Positions 2,447-18,876 of a DNA stretch of 64,000 nucleotides are shown one piece after another. Below the pieces are notes generated by a model, which saw only the letters and a program-made list of their open reading frames with translations, was not told the DNA's origin and searched no databases. The translations under genes were made by a program, and so were the position numbers. This DNA is from Streptomyces sp. 3214.6 (lineage in GTDB: Bacteria > Actinomycetota > Actinomycetes > Streptomycetales > Streptomycetaceae): NCBI RefSeq assembly GCF_900129855.1, contig NZ_LT670819.1:8370001-8434000 (forward strand), in the 5' to 3' direction. The number at the start of each line of letters is the position of its first letter. Position 1 is the first letter of the stretch.

Positions 2447-3889
2447 TCAGAGGATCGCTCCGGGGGTGTAGCCGGCCGCCTCCGGGCGCTGCTTCACGAT
2501 CTCCTCGACACGGCCGACGACCACGGCCACCTGCGCGGCGGCGGCGCCCGTGAAGGACAGCTTGTCGGCCATCAGCGCGTCCAGCCGCGCGCGGTCGAGC
2601 GGAAGACGCTCGTCGGCGGCCAGCTTGTCCAGCAGTTCGTTGCGCTCGGCGCCCTGCTCGCGCATCGCCAGCGCCGACGCGACCGCGTTCTCCTTGATCG
2701 CCTCGTGCGCCACCTCACGGCCGACACCCGCACGCACCGCGCCCATCAGCACCTTGGTGGTGGCGAGGAACGGCAGATAGCGGTCCAGTTCACGGGCGAC
2801 GACGGCCGGGAAGGCGCCGAACTCGTCGAGCACCGTCAGGAACGTCTCCAGCAGGCCGTCGAGCGCGAAGAACGCGTCCGGGAGCGCGACCCGGCGCACC
2901 ACCGAGCAGGACACGTCGCCCTCGTTCCACTGGTCGCCCGCCAGCTCGCCGGTCATCGACGCGTAGCCGCGCAGGATGACCATGAGCCCGTTGACGCGCT
3001 CGCACGACCGCGTGTTCATCTTGTGCGGCATCGCGGACGAGCCGACCTGACCCGGCTTGAAGCCCTCGGTCACCAGCTCGTGCCCGGCCATCAGCCGGAT
3101 CGTCTTCGCCAGCGAGGAGGGGGCCGCCGCGAGCTGCACCAGCGCGGTGACGACCTCGTAGTCCAGCGACCGCGGGTAGACCTGCCCCACGGACGTGAAC
3201 GCCTGCGAGAAGCCCAGGTGACCGGCGATGCGGTCCTCCAGCTCGGCCAGCTTCGCGGCGTCGCCGCCGAGCAGGTCCAGCATGTCCTGCGCCGTGCCGA
3301 CCGGGCCCTTGATGCCGCGCAGCGGATAGCGGCCGAGCAGTTCCTCGACACGGCCGTACGCCACGAGCAGCTCGTCGGCGGCGGTGGCGAACCGCTTGCC
3401 GAGGGTGGTGGCCTGCGCGGCCACGTTGTGCGAGCGGCCGGCCATGACCAGCTCGCCGTACTCGCCGGCCAGCTTGCCCAGGCGCGCCAGGACGGCCACC
3501 GTACGGTCGCGCACCAGCTCCAGCGACAGCCGGATCTGCAGCTGCTCGACGTTCTCCGTGAGGTCGCGGGACGTCATGCCCTTGTGGACCTGCTCGTGCC
3601 CGGCGAGGTCGTTGAACTCCTCGATCCGCGCCTTCACGTCGTGCCGCGTGACCTTCTCGCGCTCGGCGATGGAGGCCAGGTCGACGGTGTCCAGAACACG
3701 CTCGTAGTCGGCGATCGCCGCGTCCGGTACCTCGATCCCGAGGTCCTTCTGCGCCTTCAGCACGGCGAGCCAGAGCTGACGCTCCAGCTTCACCTTGTGC
3801 TCGGGCGACCAGAGCGTGGCGAGCTCGGCGGAGGCGTAACGTCCGGCGAGGACGTTGGGGATGCGGGGCTTGGCGGCAGCGGAAGTCAC
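2447..3889 (-). CDS. purB: Adenylosuccinate lyase
   Basis: PurB carries out two fumarate-releasing steps: SAICAR to AICAR in purine synthesis and adenylosuccinate to AMP. At 480 residues it has normal length for the actinobacterial form. The fumarase/aspartase-superfamily signature GSSAMPHKMN is at 283-292; other conserved blocks are KGMTSRDLTENVEQ (about 103-116) and GRSHNVAAQ (about 151-159). The GTG start lies only 8 bases after a TAGAAT -10 hexamer, so the mRNA may be nearly leaderless. mug follows directly downstream. Confidence 0.96.
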   Translation of the reverse strand: MTSAAAKPRIPNVLAGRYASAELATLWSPEHKVKLERQLWLAVLKAQKDLGIEVPDAAIADYERVLDTVDLASIAEREKVTRHDVKARIEEFNDLAGHEQVHKGMTSRDLTENVEQLQIRLSLELVRDRTVAVLARLGKLAGEYGELVMAGRSHNVAAQATTLGKRFATAADELLVAYGRVEELLGRYPLRGIKGPVGTAQDMLDLLGGDAAKLAELEDRIAGHLGFSQAFTSVGQVYPRSLDYEVVTALVQLAAAPSSLAKTIRLMAGHELVTEGFKPGQVGSSAMPHKMNTRSCERVNGLMVILRGYASMTGELAGDQWNEGDVSCSVVRRVALPDAFFALDGLLETFLTVLDEFGAFPAVVARELDRYLPFLATTKVLMGAVRAGVGREVAHEAIKENAVASALAMREQGAERNELLDKLAADERLPLDRARLDALMADKLSFTGAAAAQVAVVVGRVEEIVKQRPEAAGYTPGAIL

Positions 3890-3962: not shown

Positions 3963-5027
3963 TCACCCCGCGGCGTCGGGCCGAACCTCGTACGGCAGCA
4001 GCTCGGTGCGTTTCGGCGCCACCGCCGGCGTCGGGCCGAAAGCGTCGGCGAGGCTGGTCAGGATGGAGCCGGACCACCTGCTCTCCCCGAACACGCTGAC
4101 CGGCATGGCGAGCACGCCGCACTCACGCCGGAGCGTCTCCGCCGGGATTTCAACCGGGAAGAAATAGTTGCCGGGACACGTCCGGCTCGCCGCGGGAATC
4201 GCCTCGAGCACGTCGTCCGGCAACCGTTCGAACAACCGCTCAGCCCGTGCGGCCAGTACGTCGACGACCTGCCGGGGCACGTCACCGTGCTCGGTCAGCA
4301 GGCGGTCGGCGAGCCTCAGCTGTGACGGCGTCGGCGGATCCGCCCGGAACGCTTCGGCCCATTCTGCCTGCGTCGGACCCATCAGGACCACGCCGAATGT
4401 GCGTGGCCACAGCCATCCCTTGGTGACCGAATGCAGGAGGACCGCGCAACCGGTGTCCAGCAGTCGCCGTGTACCGGCGGCGAACGGCACTCCCAGGTCG
4501 TAGACGCTGTCGATCAGCAGGCGGCGGCGCGGTGATTCCCGCAACCACGCAATCACCGCGGCGCACTCGGCATCGGACAGGTACCGGCCGAGCGGCTTGC
4601 TGGGGTTGGCGAGCAGCAGGTATTCGGGCCGGTCGTCCGCCGGCGATCTCGGCAGGGCCGGCGCCGGCAGCGTCGGGTAGGACGCGGGCGCCAGGCCCGC
4701 AGCGCGGGCCAGCTCGAAGTACACCGGGTACACGTCGCTGGGCAGCCACAACCGCGCTTGCACGGAGCGCAGCCAGTGGAACACCACGCCGAGCCCGTGC
4801 CGGACCCCTCGACACACCATGGCGTGGCCGGACCACTCTTCCGGCAGCTCGAAGCGCCGCAGCCAGGCACGGGCGAGATCGCACCGGTGCACCGTACTCA
4901 TGTCGGTCGGCGGTTCCGGTCGCATCGGAGCAAGCGCCCGATACACGTTGGTCTCGGCGGCATCCAGAAGCGACGAACCAGCAACGAGCTGCCGTTGCCG
5001 GAATTCCTGGAACTCCTCGAACCTCAT
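3963..5027 (-). CDS. PLP-dependent aminotransferase-like protein (fold type I)
   Basis: This 354-residue protein has the layout of class I/II aminotransferases such as histidinol-phosphate aminotransferase. Landmarks are NPSKPLG (141-147), an IDSVY segment with Asp173 and Tyr176 that would contact PLP, and HSVTKGW with the Schiff-base Lys203 followed by Arg209. It starts within the stop of the radical SAM gene (ATGA), so the two proteins are made in tandem. The expected role is transamination or decarboxylation of an amino acid made or modified by the radical SAM enzyme, but the substrate is unknown. Codon usage is less GC-extreme than in purB, which suggests transfer. A non-transaminase PLP activity is possible. 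Confidence 0.8.
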   Translation of the reverse strand: MRFEEFQEFRQRQLVAGSSLLDAAETNVYRALAPMRPEPPTDMSTVHRCDLARAWLRRFELPEEWSGHAMVCRGVRHGLGVVFHWLRSVQARLWLPSDVYPVYFELARAAGLAPASYPTLPAPALPRSPADDRPEYLLLANPSKPLGRYLSDAECAAVIAWLRESPRRRLLIDSVYDLGVPFAAGTRRLLDTGCAVLLHSVTKGWLWPRTFGVVLMGPTQAEWAEAFRADPPTPSQLRLADRLLTEHGDVPRQVVDVLAARAERLFERLPDDVLEAIPAASRTCPGNYFFPVEIPAETLRRECGVLAMPVSVFGESRWSGSILTSLADAFGPTPAVAPKRTELLPYEVRPDAAG

Positions 5028-6364
5028 GCCGTCGCACCTTCCGGCGCGATCTCGCTGGCCCGGTCTTCCAGGGAGGCGTAGCAGCGTCCGTCGGCCATGA
5101 CGTTCCAGCTGCGTGCGATCCCATGGGTGCGTTCCCAGAGCAGGCTGGGTTCGGTGTAAGCGGCGATCCGTATCGGCCGGCCGTCCCAGTCGCCGTGGTA
5201 GACCGGCGCGCCCCAGGGCAGGCGGCTCGCCAGTTCGAAGCCGTGCTGCTCGGCGAATCGGGTGACGACGGACAGCGACACCTGGTGCTCTCGGCTCCAG
5301 ACGTTGGCGGCTCGGTCGAAGTAGAGCGACTCAGTGCTGGTGGAGACGTAGAGCTCTTTGAAGCAGACTTCCTCGACACCGAGAGCCGCGGCCCACGAAA
5401 GGTAGTCGGCGACCCCGGCCGCGTCGGCGACGCCGCCGTGCTGAAGCACGCAGATCAGCCTCAGCTGCAGCCCCGGCCAGCGGTCACGTTCCATGCGCCA
5501 GGTGTTGATCACGGAGCTCACCGGCGTGCGCAACATCATCAGCCGGTCGCTGACGGCGTCGTCCTGATGGTGCCGGGAGACCGCCAGCACGCTCAGGCCT
5601 GCGGCGCTCAGGGCTGCCAGTCGGCCGGCCTGGTCAGCGTGCTGGCCCTTTGCCAGGGTGTGCGCGTTGGTGATCAGGACGACCTTCGGGAAGGCCACCG
5701 AGCAGGCGGACACCAGCCGTAGCTGCTGTTCGAACGGTATGAGCGTGGGCTCTCCGCCGCCGGTGATCACCGCACGCTCGGCACCCGCCACTCGGGCGTG
5801 CTCCAGCCAGTGGGCGACCGCGTCCCACGGGACCCGGGCCGGCGGTTGGTCGCTGGAGATCGAAGCCGAGGAGAAGCAGAACGAACACCTGGCCTGGCAG
5901 GCGGCGGCGACCGGCAGAAGCGACACCGAGCGCGGTCGCATGTCGGCGTAGCGACGCTGTGCCGACGCGTGCAGGTGCAGGGAAGCCGCCATCGCATCCT
6001 CGACGGTTGTCGGGCGCAAAGTGACCTCGTCGCCCACGTGGTCGAGCTCGTGGACGGCTGACAACCGGATGCGAGCCTCGCGCAATTCCATGCCGAGCCC
6101 GGTCGACACGTTGGGCACCAGCTTGTCGGGGTCCACCGTGGTTTCCAGCACCAGCAGTCGGTCGCCCGAAATGGCCAGACGGTCCAGCAGTCGTCGCGCC
6201 TTGCCGATGCCGATTCCCAACTCCGCCCGGGTCAGCAGGTGGAACCGGTCGGGATAGGTACTCTCCGGAATCCCCGCCTTACCGTAAGCGAACGCGTACT
6301 TGTCGAAGCCCTTCGCGAAGTTCGACAGCACGATGACGTGGAAGCGCTGCTCGCCATGGATCAT
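5024..6364 (-). CDS. Radical SAM protein with long N-terminal domain
   Basis: Counting from the ATG at 6364, the 446-residue protein carries a CX3CX2C cluster motif (Cys156, Cys160, Cys163 in ACQARCSFCF) that binds the 4Fe-4S cluster cleaving S-adenosylmethionine. A GGGEPTL motif (SAM-binding GGE) follows at about residue 205. About 150 residues precede the barrel and match no domain I recognise. No extra SPASM-type cysteine cluster is evident; a single CYASLED segment lies near the C-terminus. The start at 6364 is preferred because it overlaps the upstream small gene's stop in an ATGA; an alternative start at 6430 would run through that gene. The next gene is a PLP aminotransferase, so a two-step modification is inferred. 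Confidence 0.85.
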   Translation of the reverse strand: MIHGEQRFHVIVLSNFAKGFDKYAFAYGKAGIPESTYPDRFHLLTRAELGIGIGKARRLLDRLAISGDRLLVLETTVDPDKLVPNVSTGLGMELREARIRLSAVHELDHVGDEVTLRPTTVEDAMAASLHLHASAQRRYADMRPRSVSLLPVAAACQARCSFCFSSASISSDQPPARVPWDAVAHWLEHARVAGAERAVITGGGEPTLIPFEQQLRLVSACSVAFPKVVLITNAHTLAKGQHADQAGRLAALSAAGLSVLAVSRHHQDDAVSDRLMMLRTPVSSVINTWRMERDRWPGLQLRLICVLQHGGVADAAGVADYLSWAAALGVEEVCFKELYVSTSTESLYFDRAANVWSREHQVSLSVVTRFAEQHGFELASRLPWGAPVYHGDWDGRPIRIAAYTEPSLLWERTHGIARSWNVMADGRCYASLEDRASEIAPEGATA

Positions 6365-6606
6365 CCCGTCATCATGCATGAACGGCCCCGGACGACAGGG
6401 GCCGAACCAGGGTTCTTCTCGCGCACCCACGCCTCCATGGCCATCACGTCGCGCAGCGGGACGCGTGGGGTGCGCCCCCAGGGCAGTGGCCAGAGCCGGC
6501 GCGTGATGCTCAGGGTGTGTCCGTCGAGGGTCAGCCGGACGGACAGGGTCGACGCGGTCAGCGGCTGGCGGACAGGCGGCTCACTCACCCCGTCGGGCTT
6601 CGTCAT
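6361..6606 (-). CDS. Small protein, 81 aa, first gene of the radical SAM unit
   Basis: This short protein begins MTKPDGVSEPP and has a beta-rich core (TLSVRLTLDGHTLSITRRLWPLPWG) followed by a charged helix (RVPLRDVMAMEAWVRE). The core pattern resembles the first strands of small PH-like domains common in actinobacteria. In such proteins more strands normally follow, so this copy may be truncated at its 3' end where the radical SAM gene begins. The stop overlaps the radical SAM ATG by 4 bases. It could be a partner protein, a substrate, or simply the broken remains of a resident gene. The evidence does not decide. Confidence 0.6.
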   Translation of the reverse strand: MTKPDGVSEPPVRQPLTASTLSVRLTLDGHTLSITRRLWPLPWGRTPRVPLRDVMAMEAWVREKNPGSAPVVRGRSCMMTG

Positions 6607-6670
6607 GACCGCAAGTGTGGCCTTGCACCGATCCGGTCATGGCCGCCCGTGAGCCGCCGGACAGGCCCTG

Positions 6671-7510
6671 TCAGGGCCCCACCCGTTCCCAGTCCGTCAC
6701 AGGGCCGGGGTTGGTGTGGTCCACAGGGGTGACCCAGAAGGCTTTGCCCAGCTCGGCGTTGAACTGGGCGCCTGTCCGGCCGTCCCCCGAGGAGCGGCCG
6801 GTGAGGCGGCGGCCGATCCAGGGGAGCAGGTGCTGCCGGGCGAAGCGGGCGTCCGCGACGCGGCGGGCGGCCCAGCCCGGGGGCGGGGTGGCCGGCATCG
6901 GCATGTGCCACTCGGTGTCCTCGGGGTCGTGGCCGAGGGTCTGCCAGACGGCCTCGGCGACCCGGCGGTGCCCCTCCGGCGTCAGGTGCAGCCGGTCGAC
7001 GTCCCACATGCGCGGGTCGCCGAGAGACGCGGCGCCGTACAGGTCGACGACGAGCGCGCCGTGCCGCTCCGCCAGCTCCTCGACGCACTCGAACAGCTCC
7101 TCCATGCGCGGCCGGAACCGCTCCAGGACGGGCCCCTGCCGACCCGGGCTGCGCATCAGGACCAGCTGTTTGCAGGCCGGGGCGAGCTGCTCCACGGCCT
7201 CTGTCAGCAGGCCCTTGACCCGGCCCATGTCGCACTTGGGGCGCAGGGTGTCGTTGAGGCCGCCGACCAGGGTGATGACGTCGGCGCCCATCGCCGCCGC
7301 CACCGGCACCTGCTCGTCGACGATCTGCCCGATGAGCTTGCCGCGCACGGCCAGGTTGGCGTACCGGAAGCCGGGCGTGCGGGCGGCCATCCGCGCGGCG
7401 AGGAGGTCCGCCCAGCCCCGGTAGGAGCCGTCGGGCAGCAGGTCCGACATGCCTTCGGTGAAGGAGTCGCCGATCGCGACCAGGCTGGTGTGTGTGGGGT
7501 TCGTCTGCAT
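6671..7510 (-). CDS. SGNH/GDSL-family hydrolase
   Basis: The 279-residue protein is a serine esterase/lipase-type hydrolase of the SGNH superfamily. Block I is IGDSFTEG with Ser16, block II includes VRGKLIGQI, block III is GGLNDTL with the oxyanion-hole Asn, and block V is DRLHLTPEGH with the catalytic Asp and His. There is no signal peptide, so a cytoplasmic esterase is likely. The C-terminal 70 residues (GWAARRVADARFARQHLLPW onward) form an extension seen in streptomycete members. The natural ester substrate is unknown. Confidence 0.9.
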   Translation of the reverse strand: MQTNPTHTSLVAIGDSFTEGMSDLLPDGSYRGWADLLAARMAARTPGFRYANLAVRGKLIGQIVDEQVPVAAAMGADVITLVGGLNDTLRPKCDMGRVKGLLTEAVEQLAPACKQLVLMRSPGRQGPVLERFRPRMEELFECVEELAERHGALVVDLYGAASLGDPRMWDVDRLHLTPEGHRRVAEAVWQTLGHDPEDTEWHMPMPATPPPGWAARRVADARFARQHLLPWIGRRLTGRSSGDGRTGAQFNAELGKAFWVTPVDHTNPGPVTDWERVGP

Positions 7511-10152: not shown

Positions 10153-10578
10153 TCAGTCGGTGAGCGGTTTCACCCAGCGCCGCCATTTCTCCTCCGGCGC
10201 ATACCCCGCCGCGCGCCACGCATGGTGCGCCGTCTCGTTGCGGGTGAGCACCATCGCGTCCCCGCGCCGCCCGCCCAGCCGTACGAACCGCTCCTCGGCG
10301 GCGGCCAGCAGCGCCGAGCCGATGCCCCTCCGGCGCCACCGCGGGTGCACCGCCAGCCGGTACAGATGGCACCGCCACCCGTCGAACCCCGCGATCACCG
10401 TCCCCACCAGCTCACCGTCCTGCTCGGCGAGGATCAACGCCTGCGGGTCCCGGGCGACCAGCCGCTCCACCCCGCTCGGGTCGTCGCTGATGCTCGTGCC
10501 CTCGGCGGCGGCTTTCCAGAAGGCGAGGACGGTGTCCAGGTCGTCGGGCGTCGCGGCCCGTATCCGCAGATCAGACAT
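10153..10578 (-). CDS. GNAT family N-acetyltransferase
   Basis: The 141-residue protein fills a single GNAT domain. It has an N-terminal strand (MSDLRIRAATPDDLDTVLAFW) and the acetyl-CoA pyrophosphate-binding segment HPRWRRRGIGSALL, which matches Q/RxxGxG/A, near residues 78-91. The C-terminal block (RNETAHHAWRAAGYAPEEKWRRWVKP) is characteristic of small-molecule or peptide N-acetyltransferases. The substrate is unknown. A hairpin follows the stop. Confidence 0.88.
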   Translation of the reverse strand: MSDLRIRAATPDDLDTVLAFWKAAAEGTSISDDPSGVERLVARDPQALILAEQDGELVGTVIAGFDGWRCHLYRLAVHPRWRRRGIGSALLAAAEERFVRLGGRRGDAMVLTRNETAHHAWRAAGYAPEEKWRRWVKPLTD

Positions 10579-10634
10579 GCGGCGATCCCATCACGGGCGG
10601 CGCACCGCGGCGCGGAATTCCAGAATCCGGACGG

Positions 10635-10759
10635 TCACCGGCCCCGCGGCCCGGCGACGACCGGAGCGAACGCCTCCCGGTACGGCCGCCCCTCCGGCGT
10701 CCGCCGCAGCCGCTCCCAATGCAGATCAGTCCGGCGCCGAAACGGAACGGACGCGGCAT
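10635..10759 (-). pseudogene. Remnant of an F420-dependent (LLM-class) oxidoreductase
   Basis: On the minus strand the ATG at 10759 reads MPRPFRFGAGL, the usual opening of LLM-class F420-dependent oxidoreductases. A second frame then ends in HWERLRRTPEG ... EAFAPVVAGPRGR, which resembles the end of the same family (EAFAPVV...L.GR). About 250 internal residues are missing and the two parts are out of frame. I read this as a gene collapsed by a large internal deletion. The family match is from memory of the termini only, so it is tentative. Confidence 0.4.
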
Positions 10760-10814
10760 GAACTCTATTCAGCCGCAAGCGACTTGAGTCCGCGCCGGGA
10801 TTCCACCCCGTCCG

Positions 10815-13382
10815 TCACTCGTGCGCGATCGCCGCCAGCACGTTCATCCGGGAAGCACGCAACGCCGGCAGCAGCGCCGCCACGACACCTACGACCGCCG
10901 AGCCCACGACGACCGCGACGATCGTGCCCCACGGGATCGCGAGGGCCTTCATGCCCTGCAACTCCAGCACCTGCTGTATGCACACGCCCCACACCAGGCC
11001 GAGCGCCAGCCCCAGCACCGCGCCGAACACCGCGATCACCACCGACTCCAGCCGGATCATCCGGCGCAACTGCCGCCGGGCCAGCCCTATGGCGCGCAGC
11101 AGCCCGATCTCCCGGGTGCGCTCCACCACCGACAGCGCCAGCGTGTTGACCACGCCGAGCACCGCGATGACGATCGCGAGCCCGAGCAGCGCGTACACCA
11201 GGTACAGCAGGACGGCGATCTGGTCGTGCACCAGCTTCTTGTAGTCCGCCTGGTCACGGGCCTGCACCTGCGGATACGCGTCGAGCGTCGTGTCCAGTCG
11301 GGGGCGCAGCCGGTCGGCCGTCGTGCCGGATTTCGCGTTCACGTACAGCGCGGAGTCCTGCCCGCCCGGCACATACTTCTCGACGGTCGCGATCCCGAAG
11401 AACAGTCCGCCCCGCGTCCCGAACCCCTCGGCGGAGTCCTGGTCGGTGAGCGCGCCGACCTTCAGCGACGTCGTCCGGTCGCCGGGGAACTCCACCGGCA
11501 GCACGGTGCCGAGCCGCACCCCGTGGTCCTTGGCGAAGTCGACGTCCATGCCGATGGCGCCGGCGGCCAGCGCGGCCGCCGAGTCGCCCTGCGCGTAGGT
11601 GACATGCGCGACGTCGTCGATCCGGTCGTCGTAACCGGTGGCGGTCGTCTTGATCCGCTTGCCGTCGGGCAGCCGTACGGCGACCGGCGCGAACCGCTGC
11701 CGTACGACGAGGCCGACGCCCTCGGTGCCGCGTACGGCTTCCGTGACCTCGCTGGAGAACGGGGTGAAGTTGGCGTTCTGAATGACGAAGTCGGCGCCCA
11801 GCGTCCGGTCGATCTGCTGGTCGAAGGACTTGGACATGGAGGCGCTCGCCACCGACATCCCGCCCACCAGGGCGAGGCCCACCATCAGCGCGGCGGCCGT
11901 GGCGCCCGTACGGCGTGGATTGCGCAGCGCGTTGCGCTGGCTCATCCGGCCGACGGAACCGAACAGCGCCGGGAAGGCGCCGCCGAGGACACGGATCACC
12001 GGACGCACCAGGAGCGGGCCCGCGACGACCGTGGCGATGAGCGTGAGGACCACGCCCAGGCCCAGCAGGGAGGCCGCCGACGCCGTCTTCGAGGAGGACA
12101 CGCAGCCCACGAGCGCGGCCACGCCCAGCGCCCCGACGACCGCGCCGACCGCCGCGCGCACCTTCAGCGGCCGGCCCACCCCGGCGACGTCCGCGTCCGC
12201 CAGCGCCGCCATCGGCGACACGGTCCCGGCGCGCCGGGCCGGCAGGTAGGCCGCCACGAAGGTGACGCCGACGCCGACCACGTACGCCGCCACCGGGGTC
12301 GCCCAGCCGACGACCATCTCCGTGGTCTTCAGGTTCATGCCGAACGCGCTCATCAGCTTGATCAGCCCGGCCGCGAGCCCGATGCCGGCGGCGAGACCGA
12401 GCGTCGAGCCGACGACGCCGAGCAGCACCGCCTCGGTGAGCACCGAGCGCCGCACCTGACGCCGGTCGGCGCCCAGGGCGCGCAGCAGGCCCAGCTCACG
12501 GGTGCGCTGGGCGATCAGCATCGAGAACGTGTTGACGATCAGGAACACGCCGACCAGGACGGCGATCCCGGCGAAGCCGAGCATCACGTACTTGATGACG
12601 TCGAGGAACCCGCCCAGGGCCTGTGCCGACGACTTGGCCTGCTCGTCGGCGGTCTTCACGTCGTAGGGCCCGGCGCCGACCGCTGCGGCGACGCGCTGCT
12701 TGAGCACCGTGTCGTTCACGCCGTGGGCGGCGTCGACGGAGATGCTCGTGGCCCTGTCCGCCGAGCCCAGGAGCTTCGTGGCGGCCGTCCCGGGGTCGAG
12801 GAAGACCAGAGCCGCGCCCGGGTTGGTGGTGGTGAAGGTGGCGATGCCGACGATCTCCACTTTGAACGAGCCCGGCTGGGCCATCACGGTGAGCGTGTCG
12901 CCGATCTTCACATGCTTCTTGTCGGCGGTGTCGGCGTCCAGCATGGCCTCGCCGGCGCCGTGCGGGGCGTGGCCGTCGGTCAGCTTCACGGGGCTGCGGT
13001 CGGTGAGGTACCAGTCGGTGGCGATGGTCGGCGCGCCCGTGGTGGGTCCGACGGACTTGTTCCCGCTGTCGACGACCGTGATGTTCTCCACGCTCACGTC
13101 CGGGTGGGCCGACGCGACCCCGTTCACGCGGGCCAGCTGCCCGGCGAGGGAGGCGGGCACGGTCTGGACCGCGCCGGTCGGCACGGAGGAGCTCAGGTCG
13201 TCCTTGGGCTTGACCGTCACATCCGCCGCCGTGGAGGCGAAGAGCCGGTCGAAAGTGCGCGTCACGGTGTCGGAGAAGATCAGGCTGCCCGCGACGAACG
13301 CCACCGACAGGACGACGGCGAGCGCGGACAGCAGCAGTCGGCCCTTGTGCGCGAGAAAGCTTCGCAGTGTCGCCTTCAGCAC
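10815..13382 (-). CDS. ABC transporter permease, FtsX/MacB-like (855 aa)
   Basis: This large permease has two FtsX-type modules. The N-terminal helix (LLLSALAVVLSVAFVAGSLI) is followed by a large extracytoplasmic region (about 50-250) and three helices with the conserved LIAQRTRELGLLRALGA segment. The second half repeats the plan, with an extracytoplasmic domain (about 480-700) and a C-terminal VVERTREIGLLRAIGLAR block. The GTG start at 13382 is chosen because the homologous sequence begins VLKATLRSFLAHKG and lies 4 bases after the ATPase stop. It probably transmits ATP-driven motion to the exterior for lipid, peptide or antibiotic handling. Confidence 0.92.
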   Translation of the reverse strand: MLKATLRSFLAHKGRLLLSALAVVLSVAFVAGSLIFSDTVTRTFDRLFASTAADVTVKPKDDLSSSVPTGAVQTVPASLAGQLARVNGVASAHPDVSVENITVVDSGNKSVGPTTGAPTIATDWYLTDRSPVKLTDGHAPHGAGEAMLDADTADKKHVKIGDTLTVMAQPGSFKVEIVGIATFTTTNPGAALVFLDPGTAATKLLGSADRATSISVDAAHGVNDTVLKQRVAAAVGAGPYDVKTADEQAKSSAQALGGFLDVIKYVMLGFAGIAVLVGVFLIVNTFSMLIAQRTRELGLLRALGADRRQVRRSVLTEAVLLGVVGSTLGLAAGIGLAAGLIKLMSAFGMNLKTTEMVVGWATPVAAYVVGVGVTFVAAYLPARRAGTVSPMAALADADVAGVGRPLKVRAAVGAVVGALGVAALVGCVSSSKTASAASLLGLGVVLTLIATVVAGPLLVRPVIRVLGGAFPALFGSVGRMSQRNALRNPRRTGATAAALMVGLALVGGMSVASASMSKSFDQQIDRTLGADFVIQNANFTPFSSEVTEAVRGTEGVGLVVRQRFAPVAVRLPDGKRIKTTATGYDDRIDDVAHVTYAQGDSAAALAAGAIGMDVDFAKDHGVRLGTVLPVEFPGDRTTSLKVGALTDQDSAEGFGTRGGLFFGIATVEKYVPGGQDSALYVNAKSGTTADRLRPRLDTTLDAYPQVQARDQADYKKLVHDQIAVLLYLVYALLGLAIVIAVLGVVNTLALSVVERTREIGLLRAIGLARRQLRRMIRLESVVIAVFGAVLGLALGLVWGVCIQQVLELQGMKALAIPWGTIVAVVVGSAVVGVVAALLPALRASRMNVLAAIAHE

Positions 13383-16644: not shown

Positions 16645-18876
16645 GTGGTGACACCGGTGAACCCCCCACCTCTTGACCGCACTTCGCCACCGACGCCCCC
16701 GGACGCGGGTCCGCGCCCGGCCTCGGCGCTGCCGGACGGCGTCCGCGTGCGCGTGCTGCGGCTCGTATACGGCGATCCGCGCGCGGCCGCCGAACTCGCG
16801 GCGCGGCTGACCGAACGACAGCGGGCCGGCCTCGACCCGCTGCCGACCGAACCCGCCGAGCTCGCTCCGGCCCTGCTGCGGGACTACCGCCGGGAGATCC
16901 GCGCCCTGCCGGAGGACACCCGGCTGCTGCTTCTGCTGGCCGCCGCCGACCAGTACCCGGTGGCCACCCACGCCTTCCTGCGGGCCGTGGCCGCCGCCCG
17001 CCTGGACACCCGCCCCCTGGAGGCGGCCGAGGCGGCCGGTCTCGCCTACTCCACGGCCGGCGGCGTCGGCTTCCGCGACGCCTGGACCCGGATCGCCGCC
17101 TACGAGACGGCCGTTCCCGCCGATCGGCGCGACGTCCACCGACTGCTCGCCCGCGTCCTGCACGGGCCGGCGGAGACGCCCCGGAGGTCCTGGCACCGGG
17201 GCGCGGGCGCGCTCGGCCCCAGCGCGCGGCTCGCCGCGGAACTGACGGCGGCGGCCGCCCAGGCACGCGCCGCCGCGGACCCGGCCCTCTCGGGCGCCCT
17301 CGCCGAACGCGCCGCCGTGCTCTGCGCGGACCCTCGCGAACAGTCCCGCCTCCTCGCCGACGCGGCGACCGACGCCTGGCACTCGGGCGACGGCGACCGC
17401 TCCCGCACCCTCGCCGCCCGCACGCACTCGGGCGCCCTCACCGGCATCCTCGCCCTGCGCACGGGCAACGCGACGGAGGCCTTCGACGCCCTGCTGGCAG
17501 GCGCGGCGCGCACGCCGCGCACCGGCGGCGCCGTCCCCCCGGCGCCCCGCGCCCCGGCTGCCCCCGCCCCCGCCTCCCATCTCCTTGCCCGCGCCGCCGA
17601 AGCCGCCGTCTACACCGGTGACCTGCGTCGATGTCGTGAAGTGGGGGCGGTCGCCAGGGCGCTGGGTGTGGACCCGCCGGGCGTGTCGGGTGGGATCGCC
17701 GCGGCCGTCGACGGGCGGTACGACGATGCGCGCGTTCTGCTGGCGGCGACCGCCGGACGGTGCGGGCCCGGCGGTGACCCCACCCTTCTCGTTCACGCCG
17801 GCATCGCCGCGCTGATGCTCGGCGACCACACCCGCGCCGCCACCGCCACCGTGCGCGCGGCCGCCGCCGCCCGCGCCCGGGGCCTCACCACGGCCGTGTC
17901 CCAGGCCATGGAGTTCCGCGCCTACGCCGAGTTCTGGACCGGCCGCCCGCGGGCCGCCGAGACCGCCGCGCTGGACGCCCTGCGGCAGGCCTACGCCACC
18001 GGACAGGACAACGGCGCCTGCCATCTCCAGGCCGCCCTGGCGATGTTCGCCGCGCTCACCGGCGACGGCGATCTGTGCCGGGAGCGGGCCACGGCCGCCC
18101 GCTCGTACGCCCTCGCCCACGGGCTGGGCCTGCCCGCCGCCCTCGCACAGTGGGCCCTCGCCTTCCTCGACCTCGGCTCCGGCCGCTACGACGCCGCCGC
18201 GACCCGGCTGCGCGCCCTCGCCGCGTCCGGCCCGGGCCACGGCCACCGGGCCATCCGCCATCTCGCCACCCCGCACTATGTCGAGGCCGCCGCCCGCACC
18301 GGCGACACCCGCGTCGCCCGTGCCGCGCACGCCGACTACGACCGCTGGGCCCGTGCCGTCGGCAGCTCCGACGACCTCGCCCTCAGCGCCCGCTGCCGGG
18401 CCCTGCTCACCCCGGGCGCCGACGCCCTCGACCACTACCGCACGGCCCTCGACCTGCACGCCGAAGGCGCCCGCGCCGTCGAACGCGCCCGCACGGAGCT
18501 GCTGTTCGGCAGTGCCCTGCGCCGACTGCGCCGGCGCACCGAGGCCCGCGACCGGCTGCACAGCGCGCTGGCGGCGTTCGACTCCTTCGGCGCCCCGCAC
18601 TGCGCGGAGGCCGCCCGCGCCGAACTCCGCGCACTCGGCGCGCCCGCCGCCGCCCCGGACCGTGGCGGCCGACGCCCGACGACCGACCTGACCGCGCAGC
18701 AACTCCTGGTCGCCCGCATGGCCGCCGACGGCGCCACGAACCGCGAGATCGCCGCCCGCCTCGCCCTCAGCCCCCGCACCATCGACCACCATCTGCGCGG
18801 CGTCTTCACCCGCCTCGGCATCCGCTCCCGCATCGAACTCGTACGGCTGCTCGCGGACGCCGACGACAGACCCTAA
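16645..18876 (+). CDS. Large LuxR-family regulator without a visible P-loop
   Basis: The 743-residue protein ends in a LuxR helix-turn-helix (about 683-740: LTAQQLLVARMAADGATNRE, then IAARLALSPRTIDHHLRGVF). The central part is made of Ala/Arg-rich helical repeats like the TPR-type region of LAL regulators. It opens with REIRALPEDTRLLLLLAAAD, which in LAL proteins follows the ATPase domain. No Walker A or B motif precedes it, so this is a truncated LAL form lacking the N-terminal ATPase. The GTG start follows a short intergenic gap. The stop overlaps the bioD stop by 4 bases. Confidence 0.85.
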   Translation: MVTPVNPPPLDRTSPPTPPDAGPRPASALPDGVRVRVLRLVYGDPRAAAELAARLTERQRAGLDPLPTEPAELAPALLRDYRREIRALPEDTRLLLLLAAADQYPVATHAFLRAVAAARLDTRPLEAAEAAGLAYSTAGGVGFRDAWTRIAAYETAVPADRRDVHRLLARVLHGPAETPRRSWHRGAGALGPSARLAAELTAAAAQARAAADPALSGALAERAAVLCADPREQSRLLADAATDAWHSGDGDRSRTLAARTHSGALTGILALRTGNATEAFDALLAGAARTPRTGGAVPPAPRAPAAPAPASHLLARAAEAAVYTGDLRRCREVGAVARALGVDPPGVSGGIAAAVDGRYDDARVLLAATAGRCGPGGDPTLLVHAGIAALMLGDHTRAATATVRAAAAARARGLTTAVSQAMEFRAYAEFWTGRPRAAETAALDALRQAYATGQDNGACHLQAALAMFAALTGDGDLCRERATAARSYALAHGLGLPAALAQWALAFLDLGSGRYDAAATRLRALAASGPGHGHRAIRHLATPHYVEAAARTGDTRVARAAHADYDRWARAVGSSDDLALSARCRALLTPGADALDHYRTALDLHAEGARAVERARTELLFGSALRRLRRRTEARDRLHSALAAFDSFGAPHCAEAARAELRALGAPAAAPDRGGRRPTTDLTAQQLLVARMAADGATNREIAARLALSPRTIDHHLRGVFTRLGIRSRIELVRLLADADDRP

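Follow-up and report, generated by a model that had tools for sequence, protein, structure and literature searches.

The TDP-desosamine enzymes DesII, DesV and DesVI are a radical SAM enzyme, a PLP aminotransferase and an N,N-dimethyltransferase, respectively. The daptide pathway uses an oxidative decarboxylase with an RRE accessory protein, an aminotransferase and a methyltransferase (PMC10036551). With respect to mobile elements, the Streptomyces element PAISt uses the 3′ end of bacA as its integration site (PMC4057263), and cis-mobilizable elements (CIMEs) are without integration genes but keep their attachment sites (PMC5704250). The unit that we describe here consists of a gene for a radical SAM enzyme (rSAM) and a gene for a PLP enzyme (aminotransferase-like, AT), often joined by a methyltransferase (MTase) gene, and is thus an enzyme set of the same kind as that for desosamine. 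The carbonyl, amine, N-methyl logic that we propose for it resembles the three steps of the daptide pathway, and the daptide methyltransferase is the nearest curated family of its MTase. As with PAISt and the CIMEs, it is found at the 3′ end of a gene together with a short direct repeat, a swapped gene tail and no integrase inside; it differs from them in that copies occur at other sites without these ends and in that the role of its 13-bp core is putative. The pair, often the trio, constitutes a real, narrow, highly conserved and mobile enzyme family that is apparently undescribed and has no assigned function. No curated family covers the pair and a literature search on this gene set returned nothing but the daptide paper, which agrees with the first-pass annotation, where no known pathway with such a set came to mind.

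The window, by which we mean the whole stretch of 64,000 nucleotides analyzed from Streptomyces sp. 3214.6 (NZ_LT670819.1, positions 8,370,001 to 8,434,000, forward strand), holds three minus-strand ORFs of 81, 446 and 354 aa between a GDSL hydrolase gene and purB, with 4-bp ATGA overlaps at both junctions. The coordinates first given for them (6361-6606, 5024-6364 and 3963-5027) stand. The features of the locus are as follows.

6671..7510, minus strand: resident GDSL/SGNH hydrolase gene, host gene of the insertion, assigned from the many other Streptomyces in which GDSL is directly followed by purB
6778..6790, minus strand: TCGGGGGACGGCC, within the 3′ end of GDSL, the left-hand one of two copies of a putative recombination core; the GDSL tail beyond it is of an alternative type, B
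6406..6622, minus strand: 217 bp of foreign DNA, a fragment of an unrelated gene and the bulk of the 81-aa ORF, assigned from 91.7% DNA identity to locus L094
6361..6606, minus strand: 81-aa ORF, a chance chimaera outside the unit, unmatched at other loci of the pair
6368..6378, minus strand: near-invariant TGCATGATGAC directly 5′ of the rSAM start codon, each position identical in 35-38 of 38 copies
5024..6364, minus strand: radical SAM enzyme, 446 aa, ATG start at 6364, assigned from Pfam and NCBIfam matches, alignments and an AlphaFold2 model
3963..5027, minus strand: PLP enzyme of fold-type I, similar to class I/II aminotransferases; annotated length 354 aa, of which residues 1-337 are native and the final 17 foreign
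3963..4016, minus strand: displaced native GDSL 3′ end (PKRTELLPYEVRPDAAG*), fused in frame to the aminotransferase
2447..3889, minus strand: resident purB, right-hand neighbour, used as the divergence yardstick

The 446-aa protein comprises an N-terminal domain (residues ∼1-140), a radical SAM barrel with a CX3CX2C motif and C-terminal strands with an invariant C428. It matches PF04055 (Radical_SAM) in Pfam at 35.7 bits against a cut-off of 29.5 (E=1.3e-8). The cluster motif CQARCSFC corresponds to C156, C160 and C163 when counted from the ATG at 6364 and is invariant in an alignment of 35 homologues, in full agreement with the cysteines picked out at first reading. An AlphaFold2 model (pLDDT 84.5) contains the partial TIM barrel expected of the superfamily, and its fold matches span residues 122-446; they comprise, for the barrel only, MoaA, viperins (Z up to 17.9), SuiB, SkfB, DesII, BlsE and GDGT-MAS. 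The N-terminal domain, which the first-pass annotation could not place, found nothing convincing in Pfam, PHROGs or PDB sequences and had no match in viral contigs. Because the whole-model fold search is dominated by the barrel, we do not claim a new fold for it. In the query for an RRE/PqqD-like domain, the N-terminal domain alone gave no Pfam match, and its predicted strand-helix order does not appear to resemble that of an RRE. We also considered an ADP-ribosyltransferase-like or DUF952-like assignment from a motif resemblance noticed by eye and did not adopt it; profile comparison with PF06108 and PF01885 gave values (hhalign E 0.2-0.4) similar to those of unrelated controls, whereas DUF952 itself gives E 1e-4 with PF01885. 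Immediately upstream of the gene, the TGCATGATGAC block at -14..-4 is more conserved than the flanking DNA; it may act as an operator, or as the -10 element where transcription is leaderless.

The assignment of the 354-aa protein as a fold-type I PLP enzyme with Lys203 as its PLP-binding residue is confirmed by three lines of evidence. It matches PF00155 (Aminotran_1_2) in Pfam at 29.7 bits against a cut-off of 19.7 (E=4.8e-7), and K203, D173, Y176 and S200, the last forming a Ser200-x-x-Lys203 motif, are invariant in 35 homologues. An AlphaFold2 model built on the L049 sequence (pLDDT 88.4) matches class I/II aminotransferases with Z 24.8 (314 residues aligned at 4.1 Å), so that both the fold and the PLP-binding Lys, Asp, Tyr and Ser of fold-type I class I/II aminotransferases are present. 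In enzymes of that class, a C-terminal Arg binds the substrate α-carboxylate; in the alignment of 35 AT sequences, no Arg is invariant after residue 168, and this speaks against an ordinary α-keto acid as the substrate. The sequence match of AT to its family is weak, CobD is among its best matches, and fold-type I includes lyases and decarboxylases too.

Among 84,980 species genomes that we scanned, relatives of rSAM occur at 41 species-level loci. The AT gene adjoins rSAM at these loci, the exception being the truncated copy L055, and in a metagenome bin (L054, 2898-5132) both are encoded in one ORF with AT at the N-terminal end. This natural fusion proves that the two proteins belong together, and with the conserved co-occurrence it bears out the first-pass reading of a coupled radical SAM/PLP pair resembling a biosynthetic pathway. 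Adjacent rSAM and AT genes range from Streptomyces to Dyella and Tenacibaculum, are also present on two Embleya plasmids and lie at many different chromosomal sites; identity of the pair is about 90% across streptomycete genera and 43% to a Tenacibaculum bin. The neighbours of the fused gene in L054 look planctomycete-like by eye. The simple gene caller that we used is valid for high-GC loci only, so for L053 we relied on a plain listing of its ORFs.

The true third member of the unit is an N-methyltransferase-like gene that has been lost from the window copy. A full-length class I SAM methyltransferase lies 3′ of AT in 17 of the 41 loci, usually with its start overlapping the AT stop by 4 bp (ATGA); it is internally deleted in L022 and was undetected in the other 23. 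The versions that accompany the pair in Dyella and Tenacibaculum are 63% and 35% identical, respectively. The L049 protein, from the complete trio of Streptomyces sp. TP-A0356 (L049, 8001-11160), is nearest to the daptide methyltransferase family NF041820 (E=6.6e-28, 97.8 bits, below the cut-off of 175), and its characterized relatives in the PDB are N-methyltransferases, namely CcbJ, CypM and aminosugar N,N-dimethyltransferases. The best candidate for a replacement elsewhere in the genome of the window is 32% identical and an ordinary paralogue. Because the rSAM tree is poorly resolved and the MTase labels omit L042 and L043, counts of gain and loss were not used. Some copies are visibly broken: in L027 (7536-8375) the AT is without residues 145-195, including the PLP Asp, in L055 (8001-8390) rSAM is cut after 99 residues, and the deleted MTase of L022 lies at 10351-11047.

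The small protein had been taken as the first member of a trio, and this part of the annotation was not upheld. The 81-aa protein is present at none of the other loci that carry the pair, and its 68 N-terminal residues derive from an unrelated gene found elsewhere in another Streptomyces: window positions 6406-6622 are 91.7% identical in DNA to positions 5726-5942 of L094 in genome G164, where the match falls inside a 226-aa ORF with no GDSL gene or purB nearby. Its ATGA overlap with rSAM arises because the start region of the rSAM gene, TGCATGATGACGGGATGA, which is common to nearly all copies, supplies the ATGA. Absence at other loci and origin from a foreign scrap rule the protein out both as a member of the unit and as a RiPP precursor. 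Small overlapping ORFs at insertion junctions can imitate operon partners, and some caution is warranted in reading them.

Comparison with other genomes supports the earlier view of an inserted unit of deviating composition and corrects the identity of the gene that was disrupted. The GC3 of the two enzyme genes is 0.84-0.86 (rSAM 0.855, AT 0.842) as against 0.94-0.96 in purB, GDSL and CBS genes, consistent with the remark that codon use here is less GC-extreme than in purB. Far from being a constant feature of Streptomyces, the pair occurs, judged by a close rSAM relative, in 7 of 199 sampled genomes. Comparing the GDSL-purB interval in other Streptomyces, as had been proposed, we found that in many Streptomyces purB directly follows GDSL and the unit is absent; there, GDSL mostly ends in ..GRRLTGRSSGDGLPPKRPELLPYE..*, with purB generally within 74-250 bp. 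The interrupted gene is this GDSL gene and not, as first suggested, a PH-like resident gene that lost its 3′ end. Its missing end was found on AT: positions 3963-4016 match the GDSL C-termini (..GRSSGDGLPPKRPELLPYE..) that adjoin purB in other Streptomyces, so the normal GDSL tail (..PKRPELLPYE..) is now the C-terminus of AT, residues PKRTELLPYEVRPDAAG. In keeping with this, DNA homology of the window AT to all other copies ends at 4016, leaving the last 17 codons non-native, and on the other side the homology of the window to most other copies starts about 20 to 50 bp 5′ of the rSAM start.

The same arrangement is seen in L017, L018, L022, L026, L049 and L091, where, as in the window, GDSL ends in ..GRSSGDGRTGAxFxAELGKAFWVTP.. 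and the normal tail is displaced about 3 to 10 kb further on. The break falls at a 13-bp direct repeat, TCSGGSGACGGCC, which in those six loci is present at both junctions and may correspond to the attachment sites of a CIME. In the window, this core marks the exact point at which the match to most GDSL genes of Streptomyces breaks off (query 1-123/124); the right-hand core and the MTase gene have been deleted, so that AT reads into the displaced GDSL tail. In some strains the alternative GDSL tail lies directly beside purB and is therefore also a resident allele, which makes site-specific recombination the likeliest, not a proven, mechanism of insertion, with the 13-bp core as its putative target. 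The unit itself contains no integrase; in L049, what looks like a broken tyrosine recombinase is encoded at some distance outside it. Copies at other sites are without ends of this type. The insertion shows that the 3′ end of GDSL next to purB is a hot spot, and we have high confidence in the anatomy and insertion of the unit as described here.

The GDSL-purB interval (window 6671-6790 and 3963-4021, and in L017, L018, L022, L026, L049, L091 and L132) is variable more generally, with two alternative GDSL C-terminal tails and strain-specific inserts. The insert in L132 is 10 kb long with sugar-uptake and glycosidase-like genes. L018 has a 117-bp direct repeat of the alternative tail (7124-7241 and 11207-11323) flanking a DUF5958-rSAM-AT-methyltransferase insert, beyond which lie further cargo and, at 16739, the normal tail, in what looks like tandem insertions. 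A DUF4326 gene lies between the displaced tail and purB in L017 (11353-11703), L026 (11387-11737), L049 (11370-11729) and L108 (1063-1441); S. ipomoeae, in which this interval is free of the unit, is among the strains that have it.

Synonymous divergence provides an estimate of how recently the unit moved. The dS of rSAM and purB is 0.13 versus 0.49 against Embleya, 0.09 versus 0.33 against S. ipomoeae and 0.26 versus 0.59 against Kitasatospora mediocidica; because silent sites of the unit have diverged 2-4 times less than those of purB, it has spread recently. The dN/dS of both enzymes is about 0.2-0.37. Selection maintains the pair even as it moves from site to site and from host to host. 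Phage records yielded no relative, and viral contigs gave one generic radical SAM protein only; carriage by phages or viruses was rejected on these data.

Taken together, these findings point to an ancestral mini-operon of radical SAM enzyme, PLP enzyme and SAM methyltransferase genes, with ATGA overlaps at both junctions, which spread horizontally, was inserted into the 3′ end of GDSL beside purB and, in the window copy, later lost its MTase gene by deletion. The conservation, co-occurrence and single natural fusion of the pair, the MTase as its third member, the recent horizontal spread and the insertion site with both junctions are shown by the data above; the chemistry is proposed. By the logic of such pathways, the rSAM enzyme may convert a position of its substrate to a carbonyl, with oxidative decarboxylation and deamination as examples of how this could happen; going by their families, the PLP enzyme would transaminate this carbonyl to an amine and the MTase, when present, would N-methylate it. 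The product would be a methylated amine or, in the window, a free amine. The inserted mini-operon with this route is our best explanation overall, and we give it about an even chance of being right. The carbonyl, transamination and N-methylation chemistry, taken by itself, is put forward more tentatively, at clearly less than even odds, as the order and nature of the reactions are modeled on daptide and desosamine logic. The lack of an invariant C-terminal Arg in AT fits a carbonyl that is not an α-keto acid, and N-methylation may not be essential given the 23 loci in which the MTase was undetected. Within 2.5 kb on either side, 27 loci in differing contexts showed no conserved small ORF or precursor peptide beyond shared unit DNA, and no transporter, protease, glycosyltransferase or sugar gene is conserved alongside the pair. 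Since neither a precursor gene nor a transporter is conserved, a common metabolite or something encoded elsewhere is the likely substrate, which is probably not encoded beside these genes. In a more specific version, an undescribed radical SAM family that has a novel N-terminal domain would work with a dedicated PLP enzyme and N-methyltransferase as a minimal, self-contained and freely mobile route from a C-H or carboxylate position to a methylated amine; it would act on some metabolite that is abundant in the host instead of a dedicated precursor. We regard this version as speculative and somewhat unlikely. The complete trio could reveal new radical SAM chemistry.

The locus can be read in other ways. 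The window copy may be a decaying remnant, perhaps making nothing here, of a family that is functional elsewhere: it is truncated at both ends, with the MTase lost, the AT C-terminus replaced and the upstream sequence cut at -48, broken copies are known in L055, L027 and L022, and dN is slightly raised. The window rSAM has a dN/dS of 0.34 to L049, as compared with 0.16-0.29 for other copies to L049, and a copy that seems to evolve slightly faster than its sisters could be decaying. Yet both ORFs run uninterrupted over their 446 and 354 codons and retain every invariant residue, their dN/dS is well under 1, the -14..-4 block is present and many intact sister copies are likewise without the MTase, so we regard decay as somewhat unlikely. 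We see a smaller chance of RiPP-type maturation, in which rSAM would act on a ribosomal peptide or host protein whose gene lies at another locus, and the PLP enzyme and MTase would finish its terminus in a daptide-like way. The MTase, nearest to the daptide profile and related to CypM, and the peptide maturases SuiB and SkfB among the rSAM fold matches point in this direction, but no small ORF is conserved in the 2.5-kb flanks of the 27 loci, no transporter or protease gene is conserved with the pair, and the N-terminal strand-helix order is predicted to be unlike that of an RRE. The unit departs from daptides in other respects as well: it has a radical SAM enzyme where daptides use an NAD(P)-dependent dehydrogenase, its AT is class I/II where theirs is class III, and it comes with neither a precursor with a C-terminal Thr nor an RRE-containing DapB, no other genes being conserved.

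Quite improbable, too, is the tailoring of a sugar nucleotide or nucleoside after the DesII-DesV-DesVI pattern, that is, radical SAM deamination to a keto-sugar followed by transamination and N,N-dimethylation. DesII, BlsE and MoaA are among the rSAM fold matches and the MTase profile matches aminosugar N,N-dimethyltransferases, but the resemblances of rSAM cover the common radical SAM core only and score far below family cut-offs (DesII profile TIGR04426, 15 bits against 450; the BlsE match is also weak). In addition, AT matched PF00155 and not a sugar-aminotransferase family, and sugar genes are not conserved nearby. Of the curated profiles, viperin_w_prok (NF038283) comes closest to the rSAM core, the PADLOC pVip profile gives E=5.8e-8, viperins are among the fold matches and the patchy, mobile distribution is that of defence genes, all of which would be consistent with synthesis of antiviral nucleotides akin to that by prokaryotic viperins. 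We consider this highly improbable: the NF038283 match has 31.6 bits against a cut-off of 180 over 107 core residues, the protein has an extra 140-residue N-terminal domain and a PLP enzyme as partner, and the search of phage records gave no relative and that of viral contigs only the generic radical SAM protein mentioned above. The mini-operon with its carbonyl-to-amine route thus remains our preferred reading.

Several of the more distant loci have neighbours of note. In Dyella choica (L052, 5373-7905), the trio is codirectional with and 74 bp behind NAD-salvage-like genes, which by eye encode NMNAT-NUDIX and NAMPT-like proteins; a link to NAD was considered and set aside, since this neighbourhood is not conserved in Tenacibaculum or L054. 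On plasmid pHsw1 of Hymenobacter swuensis (L107, 5581-7196), the gene of a distant rSAM relative (35% over 105 residues) overlaps one whose small product resembles a nucleotidyltransferase. In S. ipomoeae (L046, 4919-6703), a group II intron reverse transcriptase-like protein is encoded directly upstream of the unit.
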